The position numbers and the translations under genes are program-made. A stretch of 64,000 nt of DNA from Tautonia marina (GTDB taxonomy: Bacteria > Planctomycetota > Planctomycetia > Isosphaerales > Isosphaeraceae), in the NCBI RefSeq assembly GCF_009177065.1, contig NZ_WEZF01000002.1, forward strand, positions 1 to 64,000, in the 5' to 3' direction. This document shows positions 1,116 through 49,808 of this stretch, one piece after another (the first letter of the stretch is position 1; every line of letters starts with the position of its first letter). A model generated the notes under the pieces. The model saw nothing but the letters and a program-made list of their open reading frames with translations, ran no database searches and was not told where the DNA came from.

Positions 1116-1396
1116 TCCATGCAAGGGCGGTGCGGCCTCGCCCGATGGGATCGAAGGGCGGTCATGGCCGCATCCTTGCGTCGGTTGCCCCAGGCGGTAT
1201 GCTTGCAAAATCCCGACCGAGGCATGTCGGGTCATCATCGGACTGAGACACCGCATTCGACCTGAGGCGCCGTTAGCACGTCTGCCGAGGCGACCGATGA
1301 CGACAAGTATCCCCGAGGCCTTCCCGTCGAGAGTTGGTATTGCCCCTCGGACAGGCGATGGGCAAGGGAACGCTGAGACGTCAGCGAGCATTCATT
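1116..1396. other. Intergenic, no recognisable gene
   Basis: This stretch lies between the decayed oxidoreductase and the sulfatase fusion, which are transcribed divergently. It may contain unrecognisably decayed 5' sequence of the oxidoreductase. I see no clear promoter or RNA. Confidence 0.35.
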
Positions 1397-10432: not shown

Positions 10433-10452
10433 CCCCTACCCCGAGCGACCTG

Positions 10453-11016: not shown

Positions 11017-11055
11017 TCACGTCCGAGGCATCGGGAACATCGGGAGGGATCGAGG

Positions 11056-12597: not shown

Positions 12598-12615
12598 ATT
12601 TGGACCCTAGTCCGC

Positions 12616-12652
12616 TTCATCTTGGGTGCAGGTTCAACTCCTGTCTGCGGCA
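12616..12652 (+). other. tRNA 3'-end-like sequence (possible attachment site)
   Basis: The bases from about 12628 form a T-arm: stem GCAGG (12628-12632), loop TTCAACT, stem CCTGT (12640-12644). A 7-base acceptor-like strand CTGCGGC and a discriminator A follow. No matching 5' acceptor strand (GCCGCAG) or D-arm exists upstream; that space is occupied by the permease gene. It is therefore a 3' fragment of a tRNA or tmRNA, not a whole gene. An intrinsic terminator follows directly, as would be expected behind a tRNA gene. Such fragments are typical of integration sites. Confidence 0.4.
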
Positions 12653-12665
12653 CTCAGTAGAGTAT

Positions 12666-12695
12666 GGGTTGCGTCGAGAGACGCAGCCCCTTTTT
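12666..12695 (+). terminator. Intrinsic terminator after the permease cluster
   Basis: GGGTTGCGTC (12666-12675) pairs over ten positions (one T-G wobble) with GACGCAGCCC (12680-12689) around a GAGA tetraloop. A C and five T residues (12691-12695) follow immediately. This is a textbook rho-independent terminator for plus-strand transcription of the 5.3-12.6 kb cluster or of the tRNA remnant. Confidence 0.85.
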
Positions 12696-12839
12696 CGTTG
12701 GTTGAGTATTCGCTGCCCAGGCTTGCGACCACGGTTGATCATCCGGCTTGAGTTCGAGAGCGCTGAGAAGTCTGGCGATCGCGTGATCACCCGTCTGGTG
12801 GGAGACTGGAGGAGCCGGGGGGCAAATCGAACTCTGAAG

Positions 12840-14795
12840 TCATTCTGAGCGATCGGATTGAACACGATCCATCAGGGTCGACCGAAGCTGGTCCAGAAGC
12901 GGCATGCTGGAGGGCGAAACGAGATTGAAGGTTTCGTTCGGGTCGCTGCCCACCGCGTAGAGTTCTTCGACGGCGACGGGGGACCGTTCGGTCCGAATGT
13001 ATTTCAGGTGTCGGTCATCCATGATCGAGATCATCGGCCCCCCGAACACGGGGGATTTCCCCTCGTTCGGGAGGAACATGTCCGGGCCTGGAACGGACGC
13101 AACCGCTGGGGACGGAACTTCGGCGTTGAGGAATGATCCCTCTCCTGGCGTTCGGTCCTCCGCCGGCTCCCAGAGGGAGGCCAGCGAGATCCCAGGGAGG
13201 GGAGCGTCGGGGTGGCCAACGAGGTCGAGAAGGGTGGCAGGGACGTCTCGAAGACTTACGACCCGGTCAATTACCTGGCCTTTTGGCGCAAGGCCGGGGG
13301 CGACCATGAGCAACGGGACGTGCAATTGGTCCTCGTAGAGGCTGACCCCGTGACCAAAGAGGTCGTGCTCGCCGAACGCCTCGCCGTGGTCGGAGGTGAC
13401 GACGACGATCAGCTCGTCGAGGAGTGCGCGGCGGTCGAGCTCTCGGAAAAGCCTGCCGAGGTGTTGGTCAAGCGAGGCGATACAGGAATCGTAGCCGTCG
13501 ATCAGCAGAGCCTCCTGTTCGGGAGTGATCTCGGACTTGTTGGACCGGAGCCACCAGTCTTTCAGGAAGGCGCGATCGGCCGGGTTGGTCGGAGCCTCAC
13601 CGAACCGGTGATCGGTCCCGGGAGGAACGAGGTACGGGTCGTGGGCATCGAAGTAATTGAGGAAGGCGAAGAACGGTCGATCTTCGGCTCGATCGTGGTC
13701 GAGCCAGTGGAGGAAGCGGCGATTGATGGAGCCGGCGTCGATCCGATCGAACCGGACCAGCGGGGGAGGTTCGTTCGGTCTCAGGGACGTTGACAAACGT
13801 CCGATCAGGTCGATCAGGCGTCCACCGACCTCGGTGCTCGCGAGAATCGTGGCGAGGTTCATGGGAAGATCTTCGTAATGAGCAAACCCCCGTGAGAGGC
13901 CCGTCGCGTAGGTGGTGTAGTAGGTGTTTGCGACGATCCCGACGGTATCGTAACCAATCGAGGCCAGGCTCCCCGCCAGGGTCGGGCCGTCGTCGGACAT
14001 CGCGCCGAAGCGTCCGAGGCAGACGTCGAAGGACCATCGGCCCGTCATAAGGCTGGCATGGGAAGGCAGGGTCCAGGGGGCGGTGGCTCGGGCGCCGGTG
14101 AAGGTGACTCCGCGAGCAGCGAGCGTTTCGAGTTCCGGCGAAGTTTGCCGAGCGGCTCCGGAGCCGGGGAGGCTCAGATGATCGGCCCGAACGGTGTCCA
14201 GGACGATGAGCAGGACACTCGGGGCCCGAACCCGATCGGAAGGCTCGGTCACAGGCTGAGGGGACGCATGTCTCCAGAACGCGAGTCCAACAAGGCCGAG
14301 AAGCAACACCGGAACGGTTGACCGGACCATTCGCGCGATGGTTTGAGGATGACGTCGGGCGATCGGGACCACAATCGAGGCTCCCCCCAGCGCAAGGATC
14401 AGCAAGGCCCCAAGGTAGAGGCCCGGTCCCAGAACAAGCAGCGTCGGCAAGAAGGCAAAGGCCACCAGGAGGTGGGGTCCGATTCGATTCCCGAGGCGAG
14501 GAGAGCGGACGGTGAGCACTGCGATCGGCACCGCAATGACCAGCAAGAGGGCGGCATTGACCGTCGGGATTGTCCAGGGATAGGCACGGATCTTTCCAAG
14601 GTAGGGCCAGACCTCGCCGGACCTTGCCCTGACGAACAGGAAGGCGGCAAGTTCCCCAGCGCCCGCCAGAAGGCCCAGCCAGGCCGCGAGGATCAGGAGT
14701 CCGATCGGCCCCGGGCCAACAACCTGCGCTGTCGGGGAACCATCCTGCATCGTTGAGCGCTTACCTAGAGTTCTGTGCATCGTTCGGCGCATCAT
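12840..14795 (-). CDS. Membrane-anchored alkaline-phosphatase-superfamily hydrolase (sulfatase-like, Thr nucleophile)
   Basis: This 651-residue protein carries about five TM helices in the first 175 residues (ILAAWLGLLAGAGELAAFLF onwards) and an extracytoplasmic sulfatase-fold domain after residue 190. SVLLIVLDTVRADHLS carries the first metal-binding Asp. The nucleophile motif is APWTLPSHASLMTG with Thr242, where a true sulfatase has Cys/Ser-x-Pro-x-Arg, so formylglycine-dependent sulfatase activity is not expected. SDHGEAFGEH is the second metal site. Its topology resembles phosphoethanolamine/phosphoglycerol transferase-like membrane enzymes, or a phosphodiesterase with a Thr nucleophile. 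Start ATG 14795 (or 14792) has GAGGA just upstream. It is divergent from the 15100 gene; substrate unknown. Confidence 0.85.
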   Translation of the reverse strand: MMRRTMHRTLGKRSTMQDGSPTAQVVGPGPIGLLILAAWLGLLAGAGELAAFLFVRARSGEVWPYLGKIRAYPWTIPTVNAALLLVIAVPIAVLTVRSPRLGNRIGPHLLVAFAFLPTLLVLGPGLYLGALLILALGGASIVVPIARRHPQTIARMVRSTVPVLLLGLVGLAFWRHASPQPVTEPSDRVRAPSVLLIVLDTVRADHLSLPGSGAARQTSPELETLAARGVTFTGARATAPWTLPSHASLMTGRWSFDVCLGRFGAMSDDGPTLAGSLASIGYDTVGIVANTYYTTYATGLSRGFAHYEDLPMNLATILASTEVGGRLIDLIGRLSTSLRPNEPPPLVRFDRIDAGSINRRFLHWLDHDRAEDRPFFAFLNYFDAHDPYLVPPGTDHRFGEAPTNPADRAFLKDWWLRSNKSEITPEQEALLIDGYDSCIASLDQHLGRLFRELDRRALLDELIVVVTSDHGEAFGEHDLFGHGVSLYEDQLHVPLLMVAPGLAPKGQVIDRVVSLRDVPATLLDLVGHPDAPLPGISLASLWEPAEDRTPGEGSFLNAEVPSPAVASVPGPDMFLPNEGKSPVFGGPMISIMDDRHLKYIRTERSPVAVEELYAVGSDPNETFNLVSPSSMPLLDQLRSTLMDRVQSDRSE

Positions 14796-15099
14796 GTTCC
14801 TCGGATCGAGTCGCGGGTCGAACCCGACGCCTGCTCGATTCGAATCGACACCTCTCGAAAAAGGTGAGCCATTCGATCAAGCATTGACGCCTACAGAGTT
14901 CAGAGAGCGTCAAGGAGACGGCATTGGGCCGTATCCATCTCACGGTTCATCGTGCCGTGAGGATGCGTACGACTCACTGCGTGAACGCATTATTCTCTCT
15001 TACGGGAAAGCTTCCCTGAATTCGAAGGAGATCGCCCCGATTCCGGGGCGATTCCGTTCGTTGTCGCTCATCGGTAACTTTCGATCGGTTGAGGTGTCC
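14796..15099. other. Divergent intergenic region with hairpin
   Basis: This 304-bp spacer separates the minus-strand sulfatase-like gene from the plus-strand small membrane protein. It contains a stem-loop ATCGCCCC (15031-15038) / GGGGCGAT (15045-15052) with a 6-base loop, and GGGAA/TTCCC around 15004-15016. These lie in the probable 5' leader of the 15100 gene. No T-run follows. The region should contain promoters for both directions, but none is clear by eye. Confidence 0.4.
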
Positions 15100-15252
15100 A
15101 TGTTCGAACCGTGCATTGCCTATATTGGGCCCGAAACGATGCTCCCCTTGACGTCCGTGGTGGCTGGAGCGGTGGGAGTGGTCATGATGTTCGGGCGCAA
15201 CGTGTTACGAGGCGTTGGACGGATCTTCCGGAGACCCCCGGGATCGGGTTGA
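15100..15252 (+). CDS. 50-residue membrane peptide (YIGPETMLPLTS family)
   Basis: ATG 15100 follows GAGGTGTCC, a usable SD sequence. The product begins MFEPCIAYIGPETMLPLTSV, followed by one TM helix VVAGAVGVVMMFG and a basic tail (RNVLRGVGRIFRR). Very similar short proteins are found upstream of type I phosphodiesterase/nucleotide pyrophosphatase-like genes in many bacteria, which matches its place 108 bases before such a gene here. No enzymatic motif is present. A role as a small membrane partner or anchor of the downstream hydrolase is inference. Confidence 0.7.
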   Translation: MFEPCIAYIGPETMLPLTSVVAGAVGVVMMFGRNVLRGVGRIFRRPPGSG

Positions 15253-15360
15253 TCCGCTCGGCGACGAATCAGACACGTCTCGGTCAACTCAGACGGCCGG
15301 CCTCCTGTTGACCGGTGCGTGTTGAGTTGCGATTTGTCGATCTCCTGGAGGTCCGAGGGA

Positions 15361-17226
15361 GTGGGAAAGCTCGGGATCGAGCGGGTAATCATTGTTGGGC
15401 TCGACGGACTCGAACCGACGATCCTTGAAGAAATGCTTGCGGCCGGTGAATTGCCGAACTTCGCCGCGCTGCGAGACCTGGGCGGCTATGGCCGGATTGG
15501 GACGACACTCCCGGCGCAGACGCCGGTTGCCTGGTCGAGCTTCGCCACGGGAACAAACCCTGGAGCGCACGGCATTTTCGACTTCGTCGGGCGGGACCCG
15601 CAGTCGTATCGGGTCCAGCTCGCCTTGAACCGATACGAGCAGTCCGGAGTCTTTCAACCCCCTCGGGTGGTGAACCTCCGGCGCGGGATCCCGTTTTGGC
15701 AGCGACTTTCCGAACAGGGAATTCCGTCGTCAGTGCTTCGGTGTCCCTGTACGTACCCGCCGGATCAAGTTGAGGGGCGGATGCTCTCGGGGATGGGAGT
15801 GCCCGACCTGCGAGGCGGTTTCGGCACCGGCACGTTCTATTCGACCGAGGAGGGTGTCACGGCCGGCGAGTCAGAGCGGGTCGTCCGGCTTGACGGAGCG
15901 GGGCCGGAGCTGATCGAGACGGTGATTCTCGGACCGATACACCCTCGGACTCGGGAGGAAATCCGGGTTCCGATCGTCCTGGAACCGGGGTCTGACTCGG
16001 GGACCATGACACTGCGATCCTCGGGTGAACCCCAAATCCTCGTCTTGAGGCAGGGGCGATGGAGCGATTGGCTGAGAGTCTCCTTCCGTATGGGACTGTT
16101 GCAATCGACCTCCGGTCTGGTGCGGTTTTTCCTGGTGGAACAGGGACCAGACCGAGTTGAGCTTTATGCCTCGCCCATCCAGTTTGATCCTCAAGCTCCC
16201 CCCTTCCCCATCAGCCACCCTGAGGGATTTGCCGACGAACTCAGCCGGGCGATCGGCCTGTATCACACCACCGGCCTGGCCGAAGACCATACGACACTGA
16301 GCAACGGACGGATCAGTGAATCGGCGTTTCTCGATCAGTGCGACGACCTGTGGCGGGAACGCGAGGCGATGTTCGAGCATGAACTCTCCAGGTTTCAATC
16401 CGGCGTGCTCTACTGCCTGTTTGGGATTCCTGATCGCATTCAACACCTGTTCTGGCGCTACAGAGATCCGGGACATCCGGCGAACCGCGGACGGCCCCTC
16501 GTTTCCGATCACCAGAACGCCATTGCCGAGGCGTATCGACGCAGTGACGCCCAGGTGGGCCGGGCGCTGAGGGGGGCGGACGATCGGACACTCATTGTCG
16601 CGCTGAGCGATCATGGTTTCGGTTCGTTCCGTCGCGGGGTGAATCTCAATACCTGGCTTCTCGACCAGGGATTACTGGCTGTCTTGCACGGCGAGCGTTC
16701 GGGTGACCCGAACGGGCCACCGCTAGGGCAGATCGACTGGTCGAAGACGAAGGCGTACGCAATCGGGCTGGGGGGCATCTTTCTCAATCTTCGAGGGCGG
16801 GAGGGTGCCGGTGTGGTCGCTCCCGAGGAGGCCGAACCGCTCAAGGTAGCCATCGCGGACACATTGGGAGGCTTGGTCGATCCGGCGACCGGGGACGTCG
16901 CGATTCGGTCGGTGAGCGCTCGGGAGCAGGTCTACTCGGGCCCTTTTGTTGAGGAGGCGCCGGACCTTCTTGTTCGGTTCGGAAAGGGGTACCGGGCCTC
17001 CTGGGGGTCGGCGATGGGGCACGTCGGAGAGACGGTCTTTGAGGACAATACGAGGCTCTGGGCAGGAGATCACATTGTTGATCCGGTGCTCGTCCCCGGG
17101 GTCGTGATGATGAATCGGCCGTTTCGATCGGATCAAGCGTCGCTGTTGGATCTCGCGCCGACGGTGCTCGACGCTCTCGGGTTGCCTGTGGACCCGGAAT
17201 TGGAAGGGAGTGCCTTGCTGCGATGA
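15361..17226 (+). CDS. Type I phosphodiesterase/nucleotide pyrophosphatase-like hydrolase
   Basis: This 621-residue alkaline-phosphatase-superfamily protein is read from GTG 15361, preceded by GGAGG nine bases upstream; an ATG at 15319 would add 14 residues of poor quality. IVGLDGLEPT gives the first metal site and AQTPVAWSSFATGTNPGAHG places nucleophile Thr54 as in nucleotide pyrophosphatases/phosphodiesterases. GIPDRIQHLFWR and LSDHGFGSFRRG supply the other metal ligands. There is no signal peptide, so it is likely cytoplasmic or associated with the 50-residue membrane peptide. Family members have been linked to exopolysaccharide or surface-polymer gene sets, but the substrate cannot be told from sequence. 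Its TGA overlaps the next ATG (ATGA at 17223). Confidence 0.85.
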   Translation: MGKLGIERVIIVGLDGLEPTILEEMLAAGELPNFAALRDLGGYGRIGTTLPAQTPVAWSSFATGTNPGAHGIFDFVGRDPQSYRVQLALNRYEQSGVFQPPRVVNLRRGIPFWQRLSEQGIPSSVLRCPCTYPPDQVEGRMLSGMGVPDLRGGFGTGTFYSTEEGVTAGESERVVRLDGAGPELIETVILGPIHPRTREEIRVPIVLEPGSDSGTMTLRSSGEPQILVLRQGRWSDWLRVSFRMGLLQSTSGLVRFFLVEQGPDRVELYASPIQFDPQAPPFPISHPEGFADELSRAIGLYHTTGLAEDHTTLSNGRISESAFLDQCDDLWREREAMFEHELSRFQSGVLYCLFGIPDRIQHLFWRYRDPGHPANRGRPLVSDHQNAIAEAYRRSDAQVGRALRGADDRTLIVALSDHGFGSFRRGVNLNTWLLDQGLLAVLHGERSGDPNGPPLGQIDWSKTKAYAIGLGGIFLNLRGREGAGVVAPEEAEPLKVAIADTLGGLVDPATGDVAIRSVSAREQVYSGPFVEEAPDLLVRFGKGYRASWGSAMGHVGETVFEDNTRLWAGDHIVDPVLVPGVVMMNRPFRSDQASLLDLAPTVLDALGLPVDPELEGSALLR

Positions 17227-22319: not shown

Positions 22320-22496
22320 CCCGACCTCGGTTTCCGAAATGCCTCGCATGGGCGGACTTCTCCAGCTGGGGGTGTCTTGAGGGCGAGTGCTCGGTCGCCG
22401 TCTCGCGGACACCGAGCGCGCAGAGTGCAGGCGGCCGACGTCCGTCTGAAGCGCAGGATAGCGAGCCGATGGGAAGGCGGCCAGGATGTTGACATG

Positions 22497-29433: not shown

Positions 29434-29658
29434 CGACTTCCTCGCTGCTGGATGAATCATTCCATTTTTTCATGTTTTTTTATCAAAAAATTTGAAAGTG
29501 TCCATTATCGGTCCGACTGGCCGTCCTGATCCTTGCATGGCGAGGTCGACCGCGTGATCATGAGGGACGATGTTCGGAGACGTTGACCGTGACCAGCTCG
29601 CGTGAGTGGCATGGTGCGAGAGGCTCGGTCGTCGTCACATCGTCGGAGAATCACTCAG

Positions 29659-31866
29659 ATGAACCACCGCATTGGTTGTGCCCTGGTTGCGCTGGCCGGG
29701 CTCCTGTTTTCGGGGCAGTTCGTGGTTGCCTCGGATCGTATCGACCCCGGTCAAGCGACCGTTCGACCGGATGATCCCACGCGCTGGTACGATGTCCGGC
29801 TGCTGGGCCTTGAGGGACAGGGCTGGACGGATACGAAGGCACCCTTCGACCGACTCCCGGCCCGAGCAGAGGGAGTCGTCCGCGATCCGGTCTGGAGCCT
29901 GAGCCGCCATTCGGCCGGACTCTGTGTTCGGTTCGTGACCGACGCCCCGACGATCCGGGCCCACTGGACCCTGATCTCCGATCGACTGGACATGCCTCAT
30001 ATGCCTGCCACGGGGGTCAGTGGACTCGACCTCTATGCCAGGGTCGACGACCAGTGGTATTGGGTCGGCGTCGGTTTTCCCAATGCGGTGACCAACACCG
30101 TGACGTTGGCGTCGGGACTTCCACCAGAGGCTCGCGAGTACTTGCTCTATCTGCCGCTCTACAACGGCGTGGAGTCGGTCGAGATCGGGCTTCCCGAAGG
30201 AACGTCCCTTGCCAAGGCACCCGCAAGGCCCGAGGGGCAGGAACAACCCATTGTCGTCTACGGAACCTCGATCACTCAGGGGGGCTGTGCCTCTCGACCG
30301 GGGATGGTGCACACGGCGATTCTCGGCCGCCGGTTCAACCGTCCGGTGATCAACCTGGGATTCTCGGGCAACGGGAGGATGGAAGCGGAACTGGCCGAAC
30401 TGCTCGCAGAAATCGATCCAGCTGTTTACGTGATCGATTGTTTGCCAAACATGAATGCTGAGGAGGTCGAGGCCCGCGTTGAGCCGTTTGTTCGGATTCT
30501 TCGAGCTGCGAGACCCGAGACACCCATTGTGCTGGCCGAGGATCGCACCTATACCAACGCTCGCCTGATCGCGGCTCAACGAGAGCGAAACCAAACCTCT
30601 CGCGCGGCCCTGCGAGCGGCGTTTGATCGCCTGGTTGCCTCAGGGGTCAAGGGGCTGACCTACTTGCCCGGTGACCCCCAGCTTGGGGACGACGGTGAAG
30701 CGACGGTCGACGGCTCCCATCCGACCGATCTGGGCTTTCTCCGCATGGCCAACGCTTTCGAGCCAGCCCTTCGACCGCTCCTGACGGCTCCCGAGCACTC
30801 CGATGCTCGCGAGAACCCTGCAACGGGAGCCATCAAGGTTCCCGACTCGCTCCAGGACGCCTTCCGACCCCCGACCGCATTCGAAGGGGACGAAGAGACG
30901 CATTCCTCACCGCTGATTTTTTCTGACGGTCGTCGTGTGCGGAGTGTCTCGGACTGGCGGGAACGGCGACAGGAGATTCTCGAGACCTGGCACGGCATCA
31001 TGGGGGCCTGGCCTCCTTTGATCGAGGCACCGACAACCGAAACCCTGGGGACGGAACTGCTGGATGGCTTCGAGCAACGCACGGTGCGAATCGAGGTCGC
31101 CCCCGAGGATCGGACACTGGACGGCTATCTGCTTGTTCCTGAAGGTGAGGGGCCCTTTCCAGCCATGCTGGTGGTGTTTTATGAGCCGGGAACAGCGATC
31201 GGTGAGGGAAATCCTGTACTCGACTTTGCGCGCCAGCTCGCGAAACGTGGTTTCGTCGCCCTGTCGCTCGGGATCGACCCGAGCGCGGTGACTCCGGAAG
31301 CCGGGCGGCTCGGAGTTCAGCCGCTCTCTTACCTTGCATTCATGGCGGCCAATACTTCAAACGCGATGGTAAGGATGCCGGAAATCGACCCGAAGCGGAT
31401 TGGAGTGATGGGGCACTCGTACGGCGGCAAGTGGGCCTTGTTCGCCTCTTGCCTGCACGAGCCGTTTGCCTGCGGTGTCTGGTCGGACCCTGGGATCGTT
31501 TTCGACGAGTCGCGCCCGAATGTCAATTACTGGGAACCCTGGTACCTGGGCTGGGAACCTGATCGCACTCGCCCCAGGGGGGTGATCTCACCAGAGAGTC
31601 CTCGAACGGGATCATACAAGCAACTCATCGAGGAAGGCCGCGACCTGCATGAACTTCATGCGTTGATGGCCCCTCGACCGTTTCTTGTCTCCGGGGGATC
31701 GGAAGATCCTCCCGAACGCTGGCGAGCCTTGAATCACTCGATCGCGGTGAACAGGATACTCGGTTCCGAACACCGAGTGGCCATGACCAATCGGCCGGGA
31801 CACCGTCCGACGGAAGAATCAAACGAACAGATCTTTCAATTTCTGGACTACGTTCTGAAGCCCTGA
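29659..31866 (+). CDS. SGNH hydrolase fused to alpha/beta hydrolase, secreted
   Basis: This 735-residue protein starts at ATG 29659 (MNHRIGCALVALAGLLFSG signal peptide) after CGGAGA. Residues about 30-160 form a beta-sandwich (GLCVRFVTDAPTIRAHWTL) often found before SGNH domains. Residues about 205-390 are the SGNH esterase: VVYGTSITQGG with the nucleophile Ser, INLGFSGNGRM, and DGSHPTDLGFLRMA with Asp/His. From about 450 a second enzyme of the acetyl-xylan-esterase/dienelactone-hydrolase type follows: FPAMLVVFYEPGT, IGVMGHSYGGKWALF with G-x-S-x-G, and a late NRPGHRPTEE carrying the catalytic His. Two esterase folds in one chain point to deacylation of complex glycans. It is first in a run of six plus-strand hydrolase genes. 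Confidence 0.85.
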   Translation: MNHRIGCALVALAGLLFSGQFVVASDRIDPGQATVRPDDPTRWYDVRLLGLEGQGWTDTKAPFDRLPARAEGVVRDPVWSLSRHSAGLCVRFVTDAPTIRAHWTLISDRLDMPHMPATGVSGLDLYARVDDQWYWVGVGFPNAVTNTVTLASGLPPEAREYLLYLPLYNGVESVEIGLPEGTSLAKAPARPEGQEQPIVVYGTSITQGGCASRPGMVHTAILGRRFNRPVINLGFSGNGRMEAELAELLAEIDPAVYVIDCLPNMNAEEVEARVEPFVRILRAARPETPIVLAEDRTYTNARLIAAQRERNQTSRAALRAAFDRLVASGVKGLTYLPGDPQLGDDGEATVDGSHPTDLGFLRMANAFEPALRPLLTAPEHSDARENPATGAIKVPDSLQDAFRPPTAFEGDEETHSSPLIFSDGRRVRSVSDWRERRQEILETWHGIMGAWPPLIEAPTTETLGTELLDGFEQRTVRIEVAPEDRTLDGYLLVPEGEGPFPAMLVVFYEPGTAIGEGNPVLDFARQLAKRGFVALSLGIDPSAVTPEAGRLGVQPLSYLAFMAANTSNAMVRMPEIDPKRIGVMGHSYGGKWALFASCLHEPFACGVWSDPGIVFDESRPNVNYWEPWYLGWEPDRTRPRGVISPESPRTGSYKQLIEEGRDLHELHALMAPRPFLVSGGSEDPPERWRALNHSIAVNRILGSEHRVAMTNRPGHRPTEESNEQIFQFLDYVLKP

Positions 31867-31922
31867 TTCGAAGCTCATCTCCAGGCACGCGGCTCACGAC
31901 CGCGTTCAGCCAGGCCCGAGCA

Positions 31923-34436
31923 ATGAGGTCTATCGTGCACACGCAGGATCGAGTTCGAAGCCAGGTCACCAGGATTCGGCCAACAAGGTTCGGTTTGGTG
32001 GTGTTTCTCCTCGCCGCCGTCTCCAACATCTCCCGAGGGGCCGAGGAACAACTCCTCACTCAAGGACTTGATCAGCCGGTGGAAATCCTCCGGGACTCGT
32101 GGGGAATCGCTCACATTTACGCTCGGACGGAACACGACCTGTTCTTCGCTCAGGGCTTCAATGCGGCACGAGATCGGCTGTTTCAGCTCGAACTATGGAG
32201 ACGCCAGGCGACTGGAACAATGGCCGAGCTTCGAGGGCCGGAAGCGCTCCAGGGAGACGTCGGGGCACGTCTCCTGAAATTCCGAGGTGAGATGACCAAG
32301 GAACTGGCGCATTATCATCCGCGCGGGGCGGGGATTATCACGGCCTTTGTCGAGGGGATCAACGCTTACATCGATCTCACCATTCGAGAACCGGAGCGCC
32401 TCCCGCTCCCCTTCCTGATCCTGGGAATCACTCCCGGACACTGGACGCCCGAGGTGGTCGTCTCCCGGCACAACGGTCTGTTCCGGAATGCGACCCAGGA
32501 AGTGCAATTCGCCCAACTTGTTCACCTCCTCGGCTCAGATCGGACCCGAGCGTTGTTGAACCTTCATCCAGGACAGCCGGACTTGATTCCGGACAAGGCC
32601 GTCGACACGGCCTTGATCTCCCGAGACATCCTGGAACGCTATGCTGCCTCGCGAGCCGGGGTGCAGTTTGCACCCAAGGATGTGACACCGGAATTCCGGC
32701 GGGACGATCTGCCTGACGAGGAGGAACTGTCGGCAACATCCTCATTCCTTCCAGAACTTGAGAATGACCCCGGCCTGCTCGGCAGTAACAACTGGGCGAT
32801 TGCCGGAAATCGCACCCTCTCCGGGCGGCCCTTGCTGGCGAACGATCCACACCGCTCCATGCAAATTCCCTCGCTCCGCTACTGGGTGCATCTGGTTGGG
32901 CCGGGATGGGATGTGATCGGTGGTGGAGAGCCGGCTTTGCCAGGGGTTTCCATCGGCCACAACCGGCGAGGAGCCTGGGGACTGACGATCTTCCCGATTG
33001 ACCAGGAAGATCTCTATGTCTACGAGACGAACCCAAACAACCCGCTCCAGTACCGTTATGGCGACGGTTGGGAGTCGATGCGCGTGGTGCCAGAAATCTT
33101 CACCGTCAAGGGCGAGGGTGAAACGACCGTTGATCTGAAATTCACCCGTCATGGTCCGGTCCTGTACGAAGACCCGGAGCATCACCGGGCGTACGCTTTG
33201 CGGGCCGCCTGGCTTGAGGTCGGCACGGCCCCGTACCTGGCCAGTTTGCGAATGAACCAGGCCGCGACCTGGGAGGAATTCCGCGAGGCCTGCCGGTACT
33301 CATTCACCCCTTCGGAGAACATGATCTGGGCCGACGTGGATGGTCATATTGGCTGGCAGGCGGTCGGGCTGGCACCGATTCGACGCGGCTGGGATGGCCT
33401 GCTCCCTGTGCCGGGTGACGGCCGTTATGAGTGGGAGGGATACCTGCCCGCCGAGGAACTTCCGCATCGGATCGACCCACCCGAGGGCTGGCTCGGGTCG
33501 GCCAATCAGGACAACCTGCCACCGGGATACCCTCACGCAATCGGCTTCGTCTGGGCCGACCCGTTTCGATTCGCCAGAGTGGCGGAGGTCCTGAACTCGG
33601 GCCGCCTCCTGGCGCTGGGAGACATGGTTCAGTTGCAGCAGGACGAACTGTCAATCCCCGCTCGCCTCCTCATCCCGCTGCTTCGGGGGCTTGAACCAAA
33701 GGACGATCGGACTCGGCAAGGGCTCGATCGGCTCACATCCTGGGACTTCGTGCTCGACCGCGACTCGATCGCGGCGGCAATCTATGTGACCTGGGAGAAA
33801 CACCTGAAGGATGCCGTAGGCCAAAGGTTTATGCATGAAGAGGCCCGATCGGTGCTTCCTCCGCGATCAATCTCCACGCAAAAGGTCATCCAGTGGCTCA
33901 CATCCCCTGATGGGAGGCTCGGCCCTGACCCGGTTGCCGAACGCGACGCCTTGCTGATCGACGCCCTTCAGCAGGCCCAGGTTGAGCTGACGCAACGGTT
34001 GGGGGAGGACATGAGTCATTGGAATTATGGTCAATCCCAGCTCAAACACATTCACTTATTCCACGCACTGAGCGAAGCAGTGGATGATGCGACCCGGGCG
34101 CGACTCGATCCGGAGCCTCGTCCCAGAGGAGGCAACGGGAGCACGGTCAATAACACTTCCGATGCCGACAACCAGGCGTCAGGTGCCTCGTTTCGCTTGA
34201 TCGCCGTCGTCGGTGACTGGGATCGATCGCTGGGAACAAATGCTCCCGGGCAGTCGGGTGACCCGAGCAGCCCCCACTACGATGATCTCCTGGGTCCGTG
34301 GTCGCAGGGACGCACATTTCCGGTGATTTCATCTCGATCTGGCGTGGAGAAAGTGACGGAGACGATCTTGCATCTCCTTCCAGTCACAGGCGACACGCAG
34401 ACGGATCAGGCTCAACCGCCGGACGGAACCAGGTGA
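31923..34436 (+). CDS. Penicillin acylase family Ntn-hydrolase
   Basis: This 837-residue protein has an N-terminal membrane/signal segment FGLVVFLLAAVSNISRGA. The alpha-chain region is VEILRDSWGIAHIYARTEHD with FFAQGFNAARDRLFQLELWRR. The autocatalytic cleavage site GSNNWAIAGNRTLSG makes Ser288 the N-terminal nucleophile of the beta chain. The spacer NDPHRSMQIPSLRYWVHLV, NRRGAWGLTIF and a late family block (RPRGGNGSTVNNTS) confirm the S45 family. Members cleave amide bonds of beta-lactams, N-acyl-homoserine lactones and other N-acyl compounds in the periplasm. The natural substrate here is unknown. It lies 56 bases after the SGNH/alpha-beta gene and 38 bases before the next, so co-transcription is likely. 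Confidence 0.93.
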   Translation: MRSIVHTQDRVRSQVTRIRPTRFGLVVFLLAAVSNISRGAEEQLLTQGLDQPVEILRDSWGIAHIYARTEHDLFFAQGFNAARDRLFQLELWRRQATGTMAELRGPEALQGDVGARLLKFRGEMTKELAHYHPRGAGIITAFVEGINAYIDLTIREPERLPLPFLILGITPGHWTPEVVVSRHNGLFRNATQEVQFAQLVHLLGSDRTRALLNLHPGQPDLIPDKAVDTALISRDILERYAASRAGVQFAPKDVTPEFRRDDLPDEEELSATSSFLPELENDPGLLGSNNWAIAGNRTLSGRPLLANDPHRSMQIPSLRYWVHLVGPGWDVIGGGEPALPGVSIGHNRRGAWGLTIFPIDQEDLYVYETNPNNPLQYRYGDGWESMRVVPEIFTVKGEGETTVDLKFTRHGPVLYEDPEHHRAYALRAAWLEVGTAPYLASLRMNQAATWEEFREACRYSFTPSENMIWADVDGHIGWQAVGLAPIRRGWDGLLPVPGDGRYEWEGYLPAEELPHRIDPPEGWLGSANQDNLPPGYPHAIGFVWADPFRFARVAEVLNSGRLLALGDMVQLQQDELSIPARLLIPLLRGLEPKDDRTRQGLDRLTSWDFVLDRDSIAAAIYVTWEKHLKDAVGQRFMHEEARSVLPPRSISTQKVIQWLTSPDGRLGPDPVAERDALLIDALQQAQVELTQRLGEDMSHWNYGQSQLKHIHLFHALSEAVDDATRARLDPEPRPRGGNGSTVNNTSDADNQASGASFRLIAVVGDWDRSLGTNAPGQSGDPSSPHYDDLLGPWSQGRTFPVISSRSGVEKVTETILHLLPVTGDTQTDQAQPPDGTR

Positions 34437-34474
34437 TTTCCACGTCCGCTCGATCGATAGCAGGAGAACCTTCG

Positions 34475-35335
34475 ATGACGAACTTACTAATCGGTCTGGT
34501 TCCCTTGATCGTTGGGCTGGTTCCGACTGACGATGAAACAGGAAGATCGCCTTTCCCAGTTGGTCACCGTGGCCTGTTGTCCCATGCTCCAGAAAACACC
34601 CTGGCAGGATTCAGGGCATGTATTGACTTGCAGATTGGATTTGAACTCGACGTAAGGCGCGCCGGCGACGGCACCCTGGTCTGTCTTCACGACGAGACGG
34701 TCGATCGGACGACCGATGGACACGGGTCAATTCACCAACGCACACTCGAACAGATCGAATTGCTTGATGCAGGTTCTTGGTTCGATTCCGTCTTCTCTGG
34801 CGAGCCAGTTCCAACGCTCGAAGATGTGCTCACGCTTCTCAAAGACGGTCGAGGGGACCGCATCCTGGTTGCAATCGACCTCAAAGTCGACGACGCGTCT
34901 CTGGCTGACGACGTGGTCGGAATGGCCAGGAGGCTCGGGGTCCTTGATCGTCTTGTGATGATCGGACTCGCAATCGGGAATTCCGACCTGCGTCGTCGGC
35001 TCCGGGAAGCTGATCCGGAGACTCATGTGGCCCATCTTGCCGAATCGCCGGAGCAATTCGAAGCCGCGATGTCGGACCCTCATGCGGACTGGATCTACGT
35101 CCGTACTATTCCCTCGCCCGGCGAAGTGGAGCGTGCCCATGCGATCGGCAAACAGGTGTTCATCGCCGGACCGAAGGTCGCCGGTGTCGAACCGATCAAC
35201 TGGCGGGAAGCGGCTCAATCAGGAGTGGACGCGGTGTTGACCGACCATCCGCTTGAGTTTCGGAGAACCTTCCGTGGGGATAAACGATCGAGAGATTCGG
35301 CACAGACTCGTTCACATCAGGAAGGAGCCCCTTGA
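34475..35335 (+). CDS. Glycerophosphodiester phosphodiesterase family protein
   Basis: This 286-residue protein is read from ATG 34475 with CAGGAGAA upstream and an N-terminal hydrophobic segment (NLLIGLVPLIVGLVP) that probably exports or anchors it. VGHRGLLSHAPENTLAGFRACIDLQIGFELDVRRAGDG shows in order His-Arg, the E-N-T motif, Glu and Asp metal ligands, and LVCLHDETVDRTTDGHG contains the catalytic His. PTLEDVL and VAIDLKVD are further family blocks, and DAVLTDHPLEF closes the TIM barrel. It hydrolyses glycerophosphodiesters to glycerol-3-phosphate and an alcohol. Position inside the hydrolase run suggests use of phospholipid head groups. Confidence 0.9.
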   Translation: MTNLLIGLVPLIVGLVPTDDETGRSPFPVGHRGLLSHAPENTLAGFRACIDLQIGFELDVRRAGDGTLVCLHDETVDRTTDGHGSIHQRTLEQIELLDAGSWFDSVFSGEPVPTLEDVLTLLKDGRGDRILVAIDLKVDDASLADDVVGMARRLGVLDRLVMIGLAIGNSDLRRRLREADPETHVAHLAESPEQFEAAMSDPHADWIYVRTIPSPGEVERAHAIGKQVFIAGPKVAGVEPINWREAAQSGVDAVLTDHPLEFRRTFRGDKRSRDSAQTRSHQEGAP

Positions 35336-35437
35336 TTCGATGAGAGACTCCTCTCCCGAACACAGATCCAGACTTCGGTTCGGAAGAATTGGGCCGAATC
35401 GACGCAACCACTCGTTCCGGCCTGAAGGAGGCCGTTG

Positions 35438-36325
35438 ATGACCGATCATCCCCCTCGGATTCTCCTCATTGGTGCCCATCCCGATGACGCCGACCTCAAA
35501 GCCGGTGGCACAGCGGCCAAATGGGCTGATCTGGGATTCGTGGTCCGCATGGTCAGTATGACAGACGGCCGGGCGGGTCATCATGAGATGACAGGGTCGG
35601 AACTCATCCAGCGCCGAAAGGCAGAAGCTCAGGCGGCGGCCGCGGTCATCGGGGCCTCGTATGTCGTGCTTGATTACCCCGACGGAGAACTTGATGACCG
35701 CGTGGAGATTCGACATCAGGTGATCCGGATGATCAGGGAATTCCGGCCCGACCTGATCATCACGCATCGCACTACCGACTATCATCCCGACCATCGCTTT
35801 ACCGGCTTGCTCGTCCAAGATGCATCCTACCTGCTCACCGTGCCCGCGATCTGTCCAGACGTGCCACATCTGCCCCGATCACCCGTCATTCTCTCGTTCT
35901 CGGATGCCTTCACACGCCCGTGCCGATTCGAGCCGCAAGTAGTTGTGAACATCGAAGAGGAATTTGATCGACTGGTAGCCATGTTGCACTGCCATCAATC
36001 GCAGTTTTACGAATGGCTTCCGTTCAACGCTGGTCACCCCGAGGAAGTTCCGCAAGGCGATTCGCTTCGGAAAGCATGGCTGGCTGATCGCTTTCAAGAG
36101 CGAATCACACCGCTTGCGGACCGGTATCGTGATCTGGTCGTCCAGATCTATGGTGAGGATGAGGGATTCCGAATTCGGTACATCGAGGCGTTCGAAGTAT
36201 CGGAATTCGGCGCTCCCCTTGATTCTGAGGCACGAGCAACACTGTTTCCCTTTCTACCCCGAAGTTCTGAAGTGGTCGGCCCCGTGGAACGGAGACGATG
36301 GGTCGATCTCCCGGAAGGATCTTGA
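35438..36325 (+). CDS. PIG-L family N-acetylglucosaminyl deacetylase-like protein
   Basis: This 295-residue protein starts at ATG 35438 behind AAGGAGG. ILLIGAHPDDADLKAGGTAAKW contains the A-H-P-D-D zinc/active-site motif of the LmbE/PIG-L fold. SMTDGRAGHH, RRKAEAQAAAAVIGA, DYPDGEL and HRTTDYHPDHRFTGLLV (second histidine metal site) complete the signature. No signal peptide is present, so it acts in the cytoplasm. The family removes N-acetyl or N-acyl groups from amino-sugar conjugates. It forms part of the hydrolase run and precedes the Gfo/Idh gene by 73 bases. Confidence 0.92.
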   Translation: MTDHPPRILLIGAHPDDADLKAGGTAAKWADLGFVVRMVSMTDGRAGHHEMTGSELIQRRKAEAQAAAAVIGASYVVLDYPDGELDDRVEIRHQVIRMIREFRPDLIITHRTTDYHPDHRFTGLLVQDASYLLTVPAICPDVPHLPRSPVILSFSDAFTRPCRFEPQVVVNIEEEFDRLVAMLHCHQSQFYEWLPFNAGHPEEVPQGDSLRKAWLADRFQERITPLADRYRDLVVQIYGEDEGFRIRYIEAFEVSEFGAPLDSEARATLFPFLPRSSEVVGPVERRRWVDLPEGS

Positions 36326-36398
36326 ACCGGCGTCCGAGTCGTCGAACCGTCATTGGGTTACGCCCATCGCTCATTTCAATCAAAACCAAGGAATCATC

Positions 36399-37853
36399 AT
36401 GTCAAAATCCACGCGTCGGCGATTCTTTGAAGAATCGATGATTGCTGCGGCAGCGGCGGCGGGCGTTGCGACGGCTTCTCGGCCTCAGCGGCTCCTGGCC
36501 CAGGACGCAAAAGCGGACGCTCCCAACGACAGGATCAGACATGCGGTGCTGGGCTGCCGCATTCGCGGCCGTGTTCATGCCGCGCAGTTCGGACGGCAAG
36601 AGGGAGTCGAAATCGCTTACGTGTGCGATCCCGATCGGACGCTTGCCGAAGAACTTGCCGACACGGTTGAGAAGGACCAGGGGCGCCGGCCGAAGGCAGT
36701 TCAGGACCTACGAGTCGTCAACGACGACCCCTCGGTAGATACGGTCTCGATCGCGACACCGAACCACTGGCATGCTCTGGCTGCGATCTGGGCCATGCAA
36801 GCCGGAAAAGATGTCTACGTGGAAAAGCCGGTCAGCCACACCGTCAGCGAAGGGCGCCGAATGGTTCAGGTTGCCGAGGAAACCGGCCGGATCTGCCAGG
36901 CGGGGACCCAGAATCGCTCCAGTGGCGCCCTGGCCGCCGCCGCAGAATATATCCGGGATGGCAAGCTCGGTGATGTGACCTTCGCACGAACCATTATCTA
37001 CGGCCAGCGAGGGAGTATCGGGCCACGAGGGACGTACGAGTTGCCCGCCCATGTCGATTACAACCTGTTCCTGGGGCCGGCCGCATATGAGCCGCTGACC
37101 CGTCCAAGATTGCACTATGATTGGCACTGGGACTGGAACACAGGCAACGGCGAGCTTGGCAACAACAACATTCATTATGTGGACATTTGCCGATGGCTAA
37201 TGGATCTGACCGGCCTGGGAAACTCGGTGCTCAGTCTTGGCGGCCGACTCGGTTATGAGGATGCGGGAGAGACGCCGAATACGCAGATGGTCGTTCACTC
37301 TTTCCCCTCGAGCACCATTATTCAGGAAGTGCGTGGGCTCAAGACCGATCCCTTCAGCACCAAGTTCCAGGCCGGCTCCATTGTCCACGGGAGCGAGGGG
37401 TTCATCGCGGGATCGTCGCTGTTCGACCTGGATGGGAATCTCGTCCAGACGTTTGAAGGCCCGTCGGTCAATCACTTTGCCAACTTCATCCAGGCGGTTC
37501 GAAGCGGTCGGCGAGACGAACTGAAGGCCGACATTCTGGAGGGGCATCTTTCGAGTGCGCTCTGCCATGTCGGCAACTTCTCGTACCGCCTTGGGAAGAA
37601 ACTTCCCCCGCAGGAGATTGCCAGCAAGCTCGAAACGTACGCGCTCCACGACGAGGTCCTCCGAACCTTCGAGCGGATGGTGGATCACCTTCGCGACAAC
37701 GAAGTCAACCTGGAGCAAACCCCGCTGACAGCTGGACCATTACTGTCCATCGACTCGGATCAGGAACGATTTACAGATTCTTCCGAGGCCAATTCCTTGC
37801 TCACTCGAGAGGGTCGTTCACCCTTTGTTGTGCCGGGAATCCAGAACGTGTGA
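36399..37853 (+). CDS. Gfo/Idh/MocA-family oxidoreductase with twin-arginine signal
   Basis: This 484-residue protein starts at ATG 36399. The leader MSKSTRRRFFEESMIAAAAAAGV has a twin-arginine pattern (S-T-R-R-R-F-F), so folded export with bound NAD(P) is likely. RHAVLGCRIRGRVHAAQFGR is the Rossmann segment, although the usual G-x-G-x-x-G is altered (GCRIRG). VSIATPNHWHALAAIWAMQAGKDVYVEKPVSH contains the E-K-P motif with the catalytic Lys. The C-terminal domain includes the planctomycete-typical YDWHWDWNTGNGELGNNNIHYVD block. Members oxidise or reduce sugars and inositols, or act as NAD-dependent glycosidases. It is unrelated in position to the broken copy at 330-1115. Confidence 0.92.
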   Translation: MSKSTRRRFFEESMIAAAAAAGVATASRPQRLLAQDAKADAPNDRIRHAVLGCRIRGRVHAAQFGRQEGVEIAYVCDPDRTLAEELADTVEKDQGRRPKAVQDLRVVNDDPSVDTVSIATPNHWHALAAIWAMQAGKDVYVEKPVSHTVSEGRRMVQVAEETGRICQAGTQNRSSGALAAAAEYIRDGKLGDVTFARTIIYGQRGSIGPRGTYELPAHVDYNLFLGPAAYEPLTRPRLHYDWHWDWNTGNGELGNNNIHYVDICRWLMDLTGLGNSVLSLGGRLGYEDAGETPNTQMVVHSFPSSTIIQEVRGLKTDPFSTKFQAGSIVHGSEGFIAGSSLFDLDGNLVQTFEGPSVNHFANFIQAVRSGRRDELKADILEGHLSSALCHVGNFSYRLGKKLPPQEIASKLETYALHDEVLRTFERMVDHLRDNEVNLEQTPLTAGPLLSIDSDQERFTDSSEANSLLTREGRSPFVVPGIQNV

Positions 37854-37978
37854 GCCTCGGCGCAGGAAACCGCTCTCCCTGACATTCACTCGCGTGGGTT
37901 GCGGAATCACTGATTCTCCAATTCGACAGTCCAAGATCAACGCAACAGAACCGATTCCTCTTTTTCCAAAGGCTCTCC

Positions 37979-39211
37979 ATGAACACCCTGATTCGGGATC
38001 AACAACCACGACCAGGAACCGCGTTCAGCTGGGTCGCAGCGTTCGTGTTGTTGACCGGTTCGGCCTCAACGGTTTCGGCCTCGGAGACGACCGAGGAACG
38101 TGAGTCGAAACCATCCTCGATCATGAGAGTGGCCGCGGCCCAGCCAAAGAATCGAACGATCGATTTCCGGTTGACCCCTTCGGAGGTTCTCGATCGCGTT
38201 GACGGCTCGCTTGAAGAACTGGAACAAATCGTTCATACGGCTGGTGCGAGGGGCTGCGATGTCCTGGCGTTTCCGGAAGACACCCTTGGACTTCTCAACT
38301 GGGAAGCGGCCAATTCGGAATTGCTGGAGGAAGTCCTTCCCGTTGCCGTGGCTCGGATGCTCTCGCGGCTCGGCAAGGCGGCGTCCGAGCACCGGATGTA
38401 TTTGGTCCTCTGCAATGACGCGATCGACAAAGACGGCTATTTGTATAACATGGCATTTTTGATTGGCCGAGACGGTCAGGAGATCGGCCGATATCGCAAA
38501 GTGAACCTGCCAATGGCCGAGCAATCGCGCCGTCGAGGAAATGATTTCCCGGTGTTCCCGACACCGGACCTGGGAACGGTTGGGATGCTGATCTGTTATG
38601 ACATGGTATTCCCCGAGGCGGCGCGGTGTCTTGCCTTGCAGGGAGCCGATCTTGTCTTCCATCCGACGCTCGGTGGAGCGGCCATCGGTGACGAGGAGAT
38701 CAGCCTGGCAGCGTTTCGCACGCGTGCAGTGGAAAACTTCATGTATCTGGTCGTGGCCAATCGCGGTCAGGGAAGCATGATTCTCGCTCCCACGGGCAAG
38801 ATTCTCGCGACCGCGGAGGGTCCGGATGCACTGGCGATCGCCGACATCGATCCTTTAGGCGGCCGTGAAGGCGGTGATGCCATGAACCTTCAGGCGGATA
38901 TGCGCGGGCGGTTGTTCCGAGAACGGGTTCCAGACGCTTACAAGCTCCTGACCGATCCCGAACCTCCGATCCTGGAAAAGGTTCGGTCGAACATCACGCC
39001 CGAGGAGGCGATTCGTATCATGGCAACCGTGTTGACGACGGGAGAGTCGCGATTTAACGAGGCTGTTGCCCTCGCACGATCAGGCCGCACTGAAGAGGCG
39101 ATCCGATTGTTTGAACAGCTTTGCAGCGAGTGCCGGACCTCCTGGATCGACCGCGCCGCCCAGAGGTACCTCAAGGAGCTTCGCAGACAGGAATCCTCAT
39201 CCCGTCCCTGA
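37979..39211 (+). CDS. Secreted carbon-nitrogen hydrolase (nitrilase superfamily)
   Basis: This 410-residue protein has an N-terminal segment (FSWVAAFVLLTGSASTVSAS) that looks like a signal peptide. The catalytic Glu-Lys-Cys triad is visible: Glu in DVLAFPEDTLGL, Lys in GRYRKVNLPM and Cys in GMLICYDMVFPEAARCLA. FHPTLGG and YLVVANRGQGS are further superfamily blocks. The last ~80 residues form a helical TPR-like tail (EAVALARSGRTEEAIRLFEQL). It would hydrolyse an amide or carbamoyl bond outside the cytoplasm. It is the last gene of the hydrolase run, and its stop is about 100 bases from the convergent TolC-like gene. Confidence 0.9.
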   Translation: MNTLIRDQQPRPGTAFSWVAAFVLLTGSASTVSASETTEERESKPSSIMRVAAAQPKNRTIDFRLTPSEVLDRVDGSLEELEQIVHTAGARGCDVLAFPEDTLGLLNWEAANSELLEEVLPVAVARMLSRLGKAASEHRMYLVLCNDAIDKDGYLYNMAFLIGRDGQEIGRYRKVNLPMAEQSRRRGNDFPVFPTPDLGTVGMLICYDMVFPEAARCLALQGADLVFHPTLGGAAIGDEEISLAAFRTRAVENFMYLVVANRGQGSMILAPTGKILATAEGPDALAIADIDPLGGREGGDAMNLQADMRGRLFRERVPDAYKLLTDPEPPILEKVRSNITPEEAIRIMATVLTTGESRFNEAVALARSGRTEEAIRLFEQLCSECRTSWIDRAAQRYLKELRRQESSSRP

Positions 39212-39307
39212 TCGCGGGCTCCCCCCGTTGAAAAAGCATCCAATGCTTGTCAAGCCTTCACGGAAGCACGTTTCCATTTTGCCGCGTGCTCCGTTGGTTT
39301 TCAGGAA

Positions 39308-48701: not shown

Positions 48702-49808
48702 TCAGCGCAAAGAGCCAGCAAGCCTCTCCGAGGCGATCGCACGAGGATGGGGTTCGACGGCTCGACCGGGTAAGGTTGTCAAAATGACGCAGATCGTTTT
48801 TGATCTTGGGTCGGCCCAGGCAAGCGTTCCCGTCGATCCGGTATGTCCGAAGGTTTGATCGGAGCAACCAGGACCGCCCAGACTCGCCCCGAGCGCAAAG
48901 CCAAGGCCCCGAGGAGGATTGGCATCCGAGCGTTGATTCCGGATCATCGCGCGAGCCGTTTCGGGACGAACCACCTTGCCCTCCTGATGGAGGAATTCGG
49001 CAAGGAACCGGGCCACGTCTGGCGCCGACGCGTGAGCGCCTCCCCAGGGAGCCCCCAGCCCTCGCCAGTAAGGGCTGTTCCAGTCCCAGGACCGGGCGTC
49101 GGGATCACCTGCTCCAGACTCTGGAGCGGCACGTTCGGTCTGGCAAGGGGTTACGGCTTCCATTGGAAAACGACCGAGCCCCAGAGCGGAATGCTCCATG
49201 CCCAGGGGCCGGAAGATGGTCTGATCCACGAATTCCGGAATCTCGATTCCGCTGATTCGCCGCGCAATTTCCGAGGCCAACAAGATCGCCATGCTTGAAT
49301 ACCCGTAGCGGGTGCCCGGCTCGAAGACGAGCGGAGTCCGGAGGGCGTGATCGACAAACTCCGAGAGCGGGGCGTGTCGGGCGCGGAGGAGATCATTCTC
49401 AGGAAGCTGATCGGGCAAGCCCGAAACATGGGTCATCAGATGTCGGATCGTGATCTTCTTGCGGTCTTCGCCCAAGAATTCCGGAAGAAATCGATGCGCC
49501 GGGTCGTCGAGCGCGAAGGCGTCCTGATCGAACAAGGTCATCACTGCCGCAACTGACATGGGCTTCGAGATCGATCCCAGCAGGAACAGATCGTTGATCG
49601 ACCGAGCCGCCCCAAAGTGACGGACGTACTCATCGTTACCCTGCCGGATGCAGAGGCTCGCCGCGCTCACCTGGCCGGTGGTCGTTGCCTGGGTAAGCAC
49701 GTCCGCAACCGCTTCGCGTGGGTCGGTGTTGTCGAGGCCATAGGCGAGGCCTGGAAGGGCGCAAGCAGTCAGACTTCCAGCCTTGAGAAACGATCGACGC
49801 GTCATCAT
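48702..49808 (-). CDS. Serine beta-lactamase-like hydrolase (class C/esterase type), Tat leader
   Basis: This 368-residue protein is read from ATG 49808 with AAAGG upstream. MMTRRSFLKAGSLTACALPGLAYG is a twin-arginine leader. The SxxK motif is GSISKP (Ser79, Lys82), the Y-x-S position is RYGYSSMA, and the KTG-equivalent box reads FGHTGSTGT (His for Lys), as in esterase/DD-peptidase-like members. RHLMTHVSGLPD is a further family block. It acts in the periplasm on an ester or amide; true beta-lactamase activity cannot be assumed. It lies 74 bases from the CobW-family gene on the same strand. Confidence 0.9.
   Translation of the reverse strand: MMTRRSFLKAGSLTACALPGLAYGLDNTDPREAVADVLTQATTTGQVSAASLCIRQGNDEYVRHFGAARSINDLFLLGSISKPMSVAAVMTLFDQDAFALDDPAHRFLPEFLGEDRKKITIRHLMTHVSGLPDQLPENDLLRARHAPLSEFVDHALRTPLVFEPGTRYGYSSMAILLASEIARRISGIEIPEFVDQTIFRPLGMEHSALGLGRFPMEAVTPCQTERAAPESGAGDPDARSWDWNSPYWRGLGAPWGGAHASAPDVARFLAEFLHQEGKVVRPETARAMIRNQRSDANPPRGLGFALGASLGGPGCSDQTFGHTGSTGTLAWADPRSKTICVILTTLPGRAVEPHPRAIASERLAGSLR

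Follow-up and report, generated by a model that had tools for sequence, protein, structure and literature searches.

A six-gene run in Tautonia marina that may form a genus-assembled unit for removing substituents from decorated carbohydrates

Results

The six-gene run and its proteins

The window analyzed here comprises the first 64,000 nucleotides of contig NZ_WEZF01000002.1 of Tautonia marina (assembly GCF_009177065.1; source genome G000, 7.07 Mb in 80 contigs), and at positions 29659-39211 it holds a run of six plus-strand genes encoding predicted hydrolases and one oxidoreductase. A previous sequence-only reading of this stretch described six genes separated by 38-125 bases, and this is borne out by the measured intergenic gaps of 56, 38, 102, 73, and 125 bases. 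Its family calls were likewise confirmed for all six genes by Pfam, which returned GxDLY and Lipase_GDSL_3 for gene 1, Penicil_amidase (664 bits) for gene 2, GDPD for gene 3, PIG-L for gene 4, GFO_IDH_MocA with GFO_IDH_MocA_C2 for gene 5, and CN_hydrolase for gene 6. The genes are as follows:

29659..31866, plus strand: gene 1, predicted exported SGNH esterase (GxDLY and GDSL_3) fused to a CE15-like alpha/beta hydrolase (Pfam, signal-like N-terminus, model and fold search)
31923..34436, plus strand: gene 2, predicted exported Ntn amide hydrolase of the S45, penicillin-acylase type (Pfam, D-succinylase match, GSNNW at residue 287)
34475..35335, plus strand: gene 3, glycerophosphodiester phosphodiesterase (GDPD) family (Pfam, signal-like N-terminus)
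35438..36325, plus strand: gene 4, PIG-L family deacetylase with no export signal seen (Pfam, HPDD and HPDH motifs)
36399..37853, plus strand: gene 5, Gfo/Idh/MocA oxidoreductase with a twin-arginine (Tat-type) N-terminus (Pfam, N-terminus similar in G041, the nearest congener)
37979..39211, plus strand: gene 6, nitrilase-family (CN_hydrolase) amidase with a signal-like N-terminus and a C-terminal extension (Pfam, E-K-C motifs)

The starts listed are the likely ones, that of gene 2 being the least certain; by eye, a Shine-Dalgarno-like stretch is clear ahead of genes 1, 3, and 4, weaker ahead of genes 5 and 6, and not obvious ahead of gene 2. All six proteins carry motifs that we take to be catalytic in their families, gene 5 having been examined for the EKP and twin-arginine motifs only. 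N-termini were judged by eye, without a signal-peptide program; read in this way, those of genes 1, 2, 3, and 6 are signal-like and that of gene 5 is of the twin-arginine type, all of which recur in G041, and no export signal was seen on gene 4.

Using a simple gene caller of our own, trained partly on the genes of the run, we called 39 genes in the window, among which the run is the longest same-strand series with gaps of at most 150 bases (the runner-up has five genes). Simple arithmetic gives a chance of about 3% that a six-gene same-strand run starts at any given gene, and same-strand order by itself is unremarkable. The run is preceded, 225 bases off, by a same-strand gene for a Ser/Thr kinase with TPR repeats and followed by convergent genes for an RND-type efflux system. 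Elsewhere in the window, positions 5912-12597 hold a five-gene same-strand run (DUF58, transglutaminase-core, MoxR-type AAA, unknown, permease).

Evidence for a single transcription unit

Two features at the borders of the run bear on its transcription:

29526..29565, plus strand: candidate promoter or regulatory element ahead of gene 1, with 36 of its 40 bases shared with G041
39212..39307, no strand assigned: possible transcription end in the convergent spacer to the efflux gene; a 126-base stretch folds better than its shuffles (z -2.99; weak)

We compared spacers between two genomes, G000 and G041, with 8 shuffles per spacer. The spacer upstream of gene 1 is 57% identical overall and includes the 40-base block listed above, and its best 25-mer agrees at 22 of 25 positions (15-18 in the shuffles); comparison spacers in which a promoter is expected reached 24, 25, and 21 (nulls 16-19, 16-17, and 15-18), and three convergent spacers gave best values of 22, 22, and 25 of 40 identical. 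Within the run, the best 25-mers were 14 (shuffles 14-16) between genes 1 and 2, 15 (13-15) between genes 2 and 3, 17 (14-16) between genes 3 and 4, 17 (14-16) between genes 4 and 5, and 17 (15-17) between genes 5 and 6, so that the third and fourth gaps each lie one base above the shuffle maximum, perhaps owing to ribosome-binding sites. This test used tighter gaps, and the one before gene 5 leaves out the last three bases ahead of the probable ATG. Because the caller had placed some starts too late, we set aside as artefacts a 30/40 match ahead of gene 5 and part of the spacer preceding gene 2. Hence, no conserved internal promoter signal was found in the five gaps between the two genomes, and the conserved block before gene 1, together with internal gaps near their shuffles, suggests one promoter for the run. 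The block, weak partial matches to which occur only upstream of the SGNH gene in the congeners G040 and G042, may thus be a promoter, conservation between two genomes alone being no proof of one. Scans for sigma-70 promoters and terminators carried no information, yielding 2 promoters (2.9 expected) and 13 terminators (12.9 expected); no terminator was called around 39212..39307, where the 126-base stretch takes in coding ends. Collectively, the same strand, the short gaps, and one conserved upstream element are, as far as sequence can tell, those of an operon, and the run is probably co-transcribed. Further conserved intergenic 40-mers relative to G041 lie at 22430 (37/40) and 24924 (39/40) of the window.

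Gene order in congeners

Each of the six proteins was used to search 45 genomes of the family, among them G000, and for some proteins only the strongest matches were taken; among the matches listed, close relatives of all six occur together only in G000 and G041. The G041 run lies at C5:366697-376220, with protein identities of 81, 80, 69, 82, 80, and 78% for genes 1-6. In G040, a gene 4 relative (76%), a Gfo/Idh remnant, an SGNH/beta-helix gene, and a gene 6 homologue (75%) follow in this order; the remnant (L182:12351-12716) carries an in-frame deletion that has removed the body of the gene but left its Tat-type start and C-terminal tail. Gene 1 is represented in G040 by the SGNH half alone, about 0.87 Mb from the PIG-L/nitrilase unit on the same contig and followed on the same strand by a gene without a Pfam family and an acetamidase/formamidase gene. 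Among the matches listed, gene 2 is unmatched in G040 and gene 3 has a partial match (47% over 133 residues); in G042, gene 2 is likewise unmatched, the SGNH half reaches 74%, gene 3 is partial (42%), and the best matches to genes 4, 5, and 6 stand at 47, 47, and 34%. The nitrilase homologue of G040 (L182:14931-16874) has about 250 additional N-terminal residues, in which no Pfam family was found.

The sequence-only reading had named separate promoters and a lack of synteny in relatives as what would speak against a unit. The promoter part leaves the unit standing, given the quiet internal gaps; the synteny part goes the other way, as synteny among close relatives is limited to G041 plus the partial, damaged unit of G040.

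Distribution beyond the genus

The class-level search was made with genes 2, 3, 5, and 6 at strict cut-offs, the listed places being read by eye. Of 347 genomes, 6 had a match to gene 6 (E 1e-60) and 32 a match to gene 2 (1e-100); of 342 genomes, 126 matched gene 5 (1e-130) and 72 matched gene 3 (1e-40). Outside G000 and G041, no contig held two of these four genes, except in single-contig genomes where genes 3 and 5 lie more than about 0.6 Mb apart; genes on separate contigs may still adjoin in the genome. Neighbourhoods outside the same two genomes, several of them on short contigs, contained another close relative in 1 of 11 cases for gene 4 (matches of at least 60%; G007 and G011, at 50-52%, are likewise without one), 0 of 18 for gene 5 (matches of at least 56%, one more match, G223, being left out), 1 of 4 for gene 6, 0 of 12 for gene 2 (of 30 other matching genomes), and 0 of 5 for gene 3 (of 70). 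Both positive neighbourhoods, those of genes 4 and 6, are G040. We thus observed no conserved cluster of close relatives in other genera, and the combination of genes is as unusual as had been supposed. More distant pairs do occur: a 38% Gfo/Idh near a gene 2 relative (L227), a 39% PIG-L two genes ahead of a gene 5 relative (G280, L233), and, in G009, a 62% match to the alpha/beta half of gene 1 lying some 20 kb away from a gene 4 relative.

Such a distribution raises the alternative that unrelated scavenging genes have come to adjoin one another by chance in a family-rich genome, any co-transcription carrying no pathway meaning; we regard this as possible but doubtful. It is favoured by the abundance of the families in G000 (at least 30 Gfo/Idh, 13 nitrilase, and 6 PIG-L matches), by the dispersal of each gene's close relatives in other genomes, and by the fact that the full run is common to one other genome, where the flanks are shared as well. 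It does not readily explain why PIG-L, the Gfo/Idh remnant, and the nitrilase stand together in G040 despite gene 1 lying so far off, nor why the five internal gaps show little sign of conserved promoters.

Gene 1, an SGNH/CE15-like fusion

The N-terminal half of gene 1 (residues 63-375) resembles the GxDLY/SGNH protein 4lhs (227 bits), which is named only "uncharacterized protein" and, unlike gene 1, has no alpha/beta half. In the open reading frames from the loci compared, the alpha/beta half is matched by 92, the SGNH half by 27, and both halves by 6, some of these six being the same gene in overlapping loci; the fusion was seen only in G000 and G041. For the alpha/beta half, no Pfam family was clearly above its cut-off, Peptidase_S9 being just at it. 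An AlphaFold model built from an alignment of 35 members reached a mean predicted local distance difference test score (pLDDT) of 89.5, and in a PDB fold search with this model rows 1-29 were all CE15/glucuronoyl esterases, many of them one protein (best E 4.5e-19). The modelled alpha/beta half thus has the CE15 alpha/beta fold. The putative triad Ser198, Asp294, and His326 is invariant in 35 of 35 relatives; the residue following the nucleophilic Ser is Tyr in 33, Phe in two, and Arg in none. In CE15 enzymes the nucleophilic Ser is followed by an Arg, the loss of which cuts kcat more than 80-fold in OtCE15A (PMC8933493). Hence, we did not assign the alpha/beta half to CE15: it is like the glucuronoyl esterases (OtCE15A, 7nn3) in fold, but differs in having Tyr or Phe for Arg, in sequence (14-22% identity, best 50 rows), and in its fusion to an SGNH domain.

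One scan gave 225 relatives of gene 1, of which 80 named loci were kept (flanks 1.22 Mb, E 1e-10). The alpha/beta half is encoded almost full length in 78 of them, and a Gfo/Idh relative is present in the flanks of 14. Three loci picked for their Gfo/Idh or PIG-L matches were given a family search. The first, L083 from Isosphaera sp. (9923-16252), carries on one strand a CE15-like esterase (58%), a PIG-L (43%), a Gfo/Idh (32%), a sugar-isomerase-like TIM barrel, and a sulfatase, that is, three of the run's six families in one row, which argues against a chance neighbourhood. At L044 a heparinase II/III-like gene precedes the esterase, and at L052:8192-11239 a heparinase II/III-like enzyme is fused to the CE15-like esterase; Nramp-like and Gfo/Idh genes come next at both. 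These contexts strengthen a carbohydrate reading of the run.

Other domain arrangements were also seen. At L095:8403-11002 (Candidatus Laterigemmans), the SGNH and CE15-like halves are adjacent genes, divergent on opposite strands; in G028, an SGNH domain is joined to rhodanese; and the window itself holds, at 1358-3589, a second SGNH fusion, with a GDSL_2 domain then a sulfatase in one protein.

Genes 4 and 5, PIG-L and Gfo/Idh

Gene 4 shares the PIG-L family and the HPDD and HPDH motifs with BshB1 and diacetylchitobiose deacetylase, but scores under all four NCBIfam cut-offs listed, including that of BshB1 (113.2 bits against 182.5). Its relatives in G014 and G009 adjoin a 3-keto-disaccharide hydrolase and a Gfo/Idh (G009 via similarity to G014), that in G016 adjoins a Gfo/Idh followed by a TIM barrel, and that in G020 a TIM barrel; in G006, an acetyl-xylan-esterase-like gene lies on one side and a DPP-IV-type peptidase on the other. 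Sugar-type partners were thus found for 4 of the 11 relatives, with G006 mixed, G040 apart, and the family search not extending to G017, G018, G019, G038, and G039.

The nearest solved structures to gene 5 (8tdf and 8tdh) are named dehydrogenases, and its best NCBIfam match is the glycoside 3-dehydrogenase model (BT_2158), at 120 bits far under the cut-off of 750. According to PMC11300592, BT2158 itself is a periplasmic glycoside 3-dehydrogenase. As a point of difference, a 3-keto-disaccharide hydrolase gene is absent from the run. In 10 of 18 neighbourhoods of gene 5 relatives (L232-L234, L239-L245), a short, divergent second Gfo/Idh gene, absent from the window, lies directly upstream, preceded in G280 (L233) by the PIG-L gene. 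A term search found no literature joining planctomycetes with Gfo/Idh/MocA, or Planctomycetes with 3-keto-disaccharide hydrolase.

Genes 2, 3, and 6, acylase, GDPD, and nitrilase

The closest solved relative of gene 2 is D-succinylase (7eby, 7ea4; MEROPS S45), at 589 bits over residues 40-820. The likeness covers the full length and the N-terminal Ser motif; gene 2 stands in another organism and context. PMC11241749 describes D-succinylase as an S45 enzyme acting on D-amino acids. The proposal that the acylase quenches N-acyl signals is weakened accordingly. Gene 2 does belong to the PvdQ superfamily and matches the NCBIfam PvdQ equivalog weakly (50.3 bits), but the cut-off of that model is 950, PvdQ chains score only about 37 bits against 589 for D-succinylase, and quenching of N-acyl-homoserine lactones would leave the remaining five genes without a role; we consider it very improbable.

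The neighbourhoods of gene 2 relatives share no partner from genus to genus; they include an XPB-type helicase with DUF790 in G021, G022, and, judged from gene lengths alone, probably G023, components of 2-oxoglutarate dehydrogenase in G014, a transglutaminase in G044, and elsewhere a secretin, an AAA ATPase, a sulfatase, and cytochromes. Gene 3 is an ordinary GDPD, and the nearest matches to gene 6 are PH0642 and N-carbamoylputrescine amidohydrolase, with modest scores. No recurrent partner for genes 2, 3, and 6 was found among the neighbours examined, a point in favour of a chance neighbourhood.

Discussion

We herein show that the run is real, tight, narrowly distributed, and made of known enzyme families. 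Family membership, motifs, order, spacing, conservation in one congener, and one upstream element can all be read from the sequence. The explanation that we prefer, at a probability of roughly 0.5, is that genes 1-6 are one transcription unit assembled within the genus and serve as a toolkit, mostly extracytoplasmic, for removing substituents from decorated carbohydrates. The SGNH half would remove O-acyl groups and the CE15-like half would cut a different ester bond, perhaps at a uronic acid; amide-linked groups may be cleaved by the S45 acylase and the exported nitrilase, and phosphodiesters would be opened by the GDPD. The Tat-type Gfo/Idh would oxidize a sugar, plausibly at C3, and PIG-L would de-N-acylate an amino sugar in the cytoplasm. 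The six enzymes probably act in parallel on separate substituents, not in a fixed sequence on one molecule. The widest support is for a core of CE15-like esterase, PIG-L, and Gfo/Idh; the carbohydrate reading is a good fit for genes 1, 4, and 5, and a loose one for genes 2, 3, and 6.

Several observations weigh against this reading. The D-succinylase match suggests that gene 2 may act on amino-acid amides. Among the 80 gene 1 loci, a Gfo/Idh lies within 1.5 kb in only six and a PIG-L in one, and relatives of genes 2, 3, and 6 are in the flanks of none (E 1e-10); the six Gfo/Idh cases are, by rough arithmetic only, an excess over about one in 80 expected by chance (at least 30 genes per 7 Mb, no matched control). 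In L083 the relatives are distant, not close, and genes 2, 3, and 6 have no counterpart there, a sulfatase and a TIM barrel standing instead. The more distant PIG-L relatives of G007 and G011 adjoin M20 peptidases, and the run itself contains no transporter or glycoside hydrolase. Moreover, G041 is collinear beyond the run too, over a region bounded by the genes at 18194 and 48702-49808; hence, synteny there reflects common descent and not selection acting on the run, and since the flanking genes are equally collinear we dropped conserved synteny in G041 as an argument for it. Finally, the decay of Gfo/Idh in G040 indicates that it is dispensable there.

The sequence-only reading had also proposed that the run dismantles an N-acylated, phosphorylated glycolipid. 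Our results do not support a single such substrate, since PIG-L lacks a visible export signal against five exported-looking proteins, gene 1 has a CE15-like C-terminal half, and genes 1, 4, and 5 have relatives that stand beside sugar or polysaccharide enzymes. More broadly, the run could serve turnover of N-acylated amino lipids or glycolipids, acylase, nitrilase, and PIG-L taking N-acyl groups, GDPD the head group, and gene 1 the ester-linked acyl groups. The bond types match on paper, the GDPD and the S45 acylase look exported, and ornithine lipids, with amide- and ester-linked acyl groups, are in planctomycetes the subject of PMC12493201. The CE15-like fold of gene 1, the D-succinylase likeness of gene 2, the sugar-enzyme partners of the relatives, and a PIG-L that appears, by eye, to stay inside speak against it, and we hold lipid turnover to be improbable.

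Within the preferred carbohydrate reading, a bolder version can be put forward as a speculation. The run could be a genus-built operon for a specific polymer with ester, amide, and phosphodiester substituents on amino-sugar or uronic-acid units, from which the SGNH/CE15-like protein, the S45 acylase, GDPD, and nitrilase would strip the substituents first, before Tat-type oxidation and PIG-L action; the CE15-like Tyr/Phe family would then be an unnamed carbohydrate esterase family recurring with heparinase-like, PIG-L, and Gfo/Idh genes.

Two aspects give the locus its interest, neither of which alone settles a long-standing question. The run offers a case of operon assembly that can be traced, with six genes together in two sister genomes, a partial, decayed form in another congener, and close relatives dispersed over further genomes. 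In addition, the run brings to light a widespread esterase family with a CE15-like fold but without the key Arg, and, given that absence, the mechanism or the substrate of this family is probably not that of glucuronoyl esterases.

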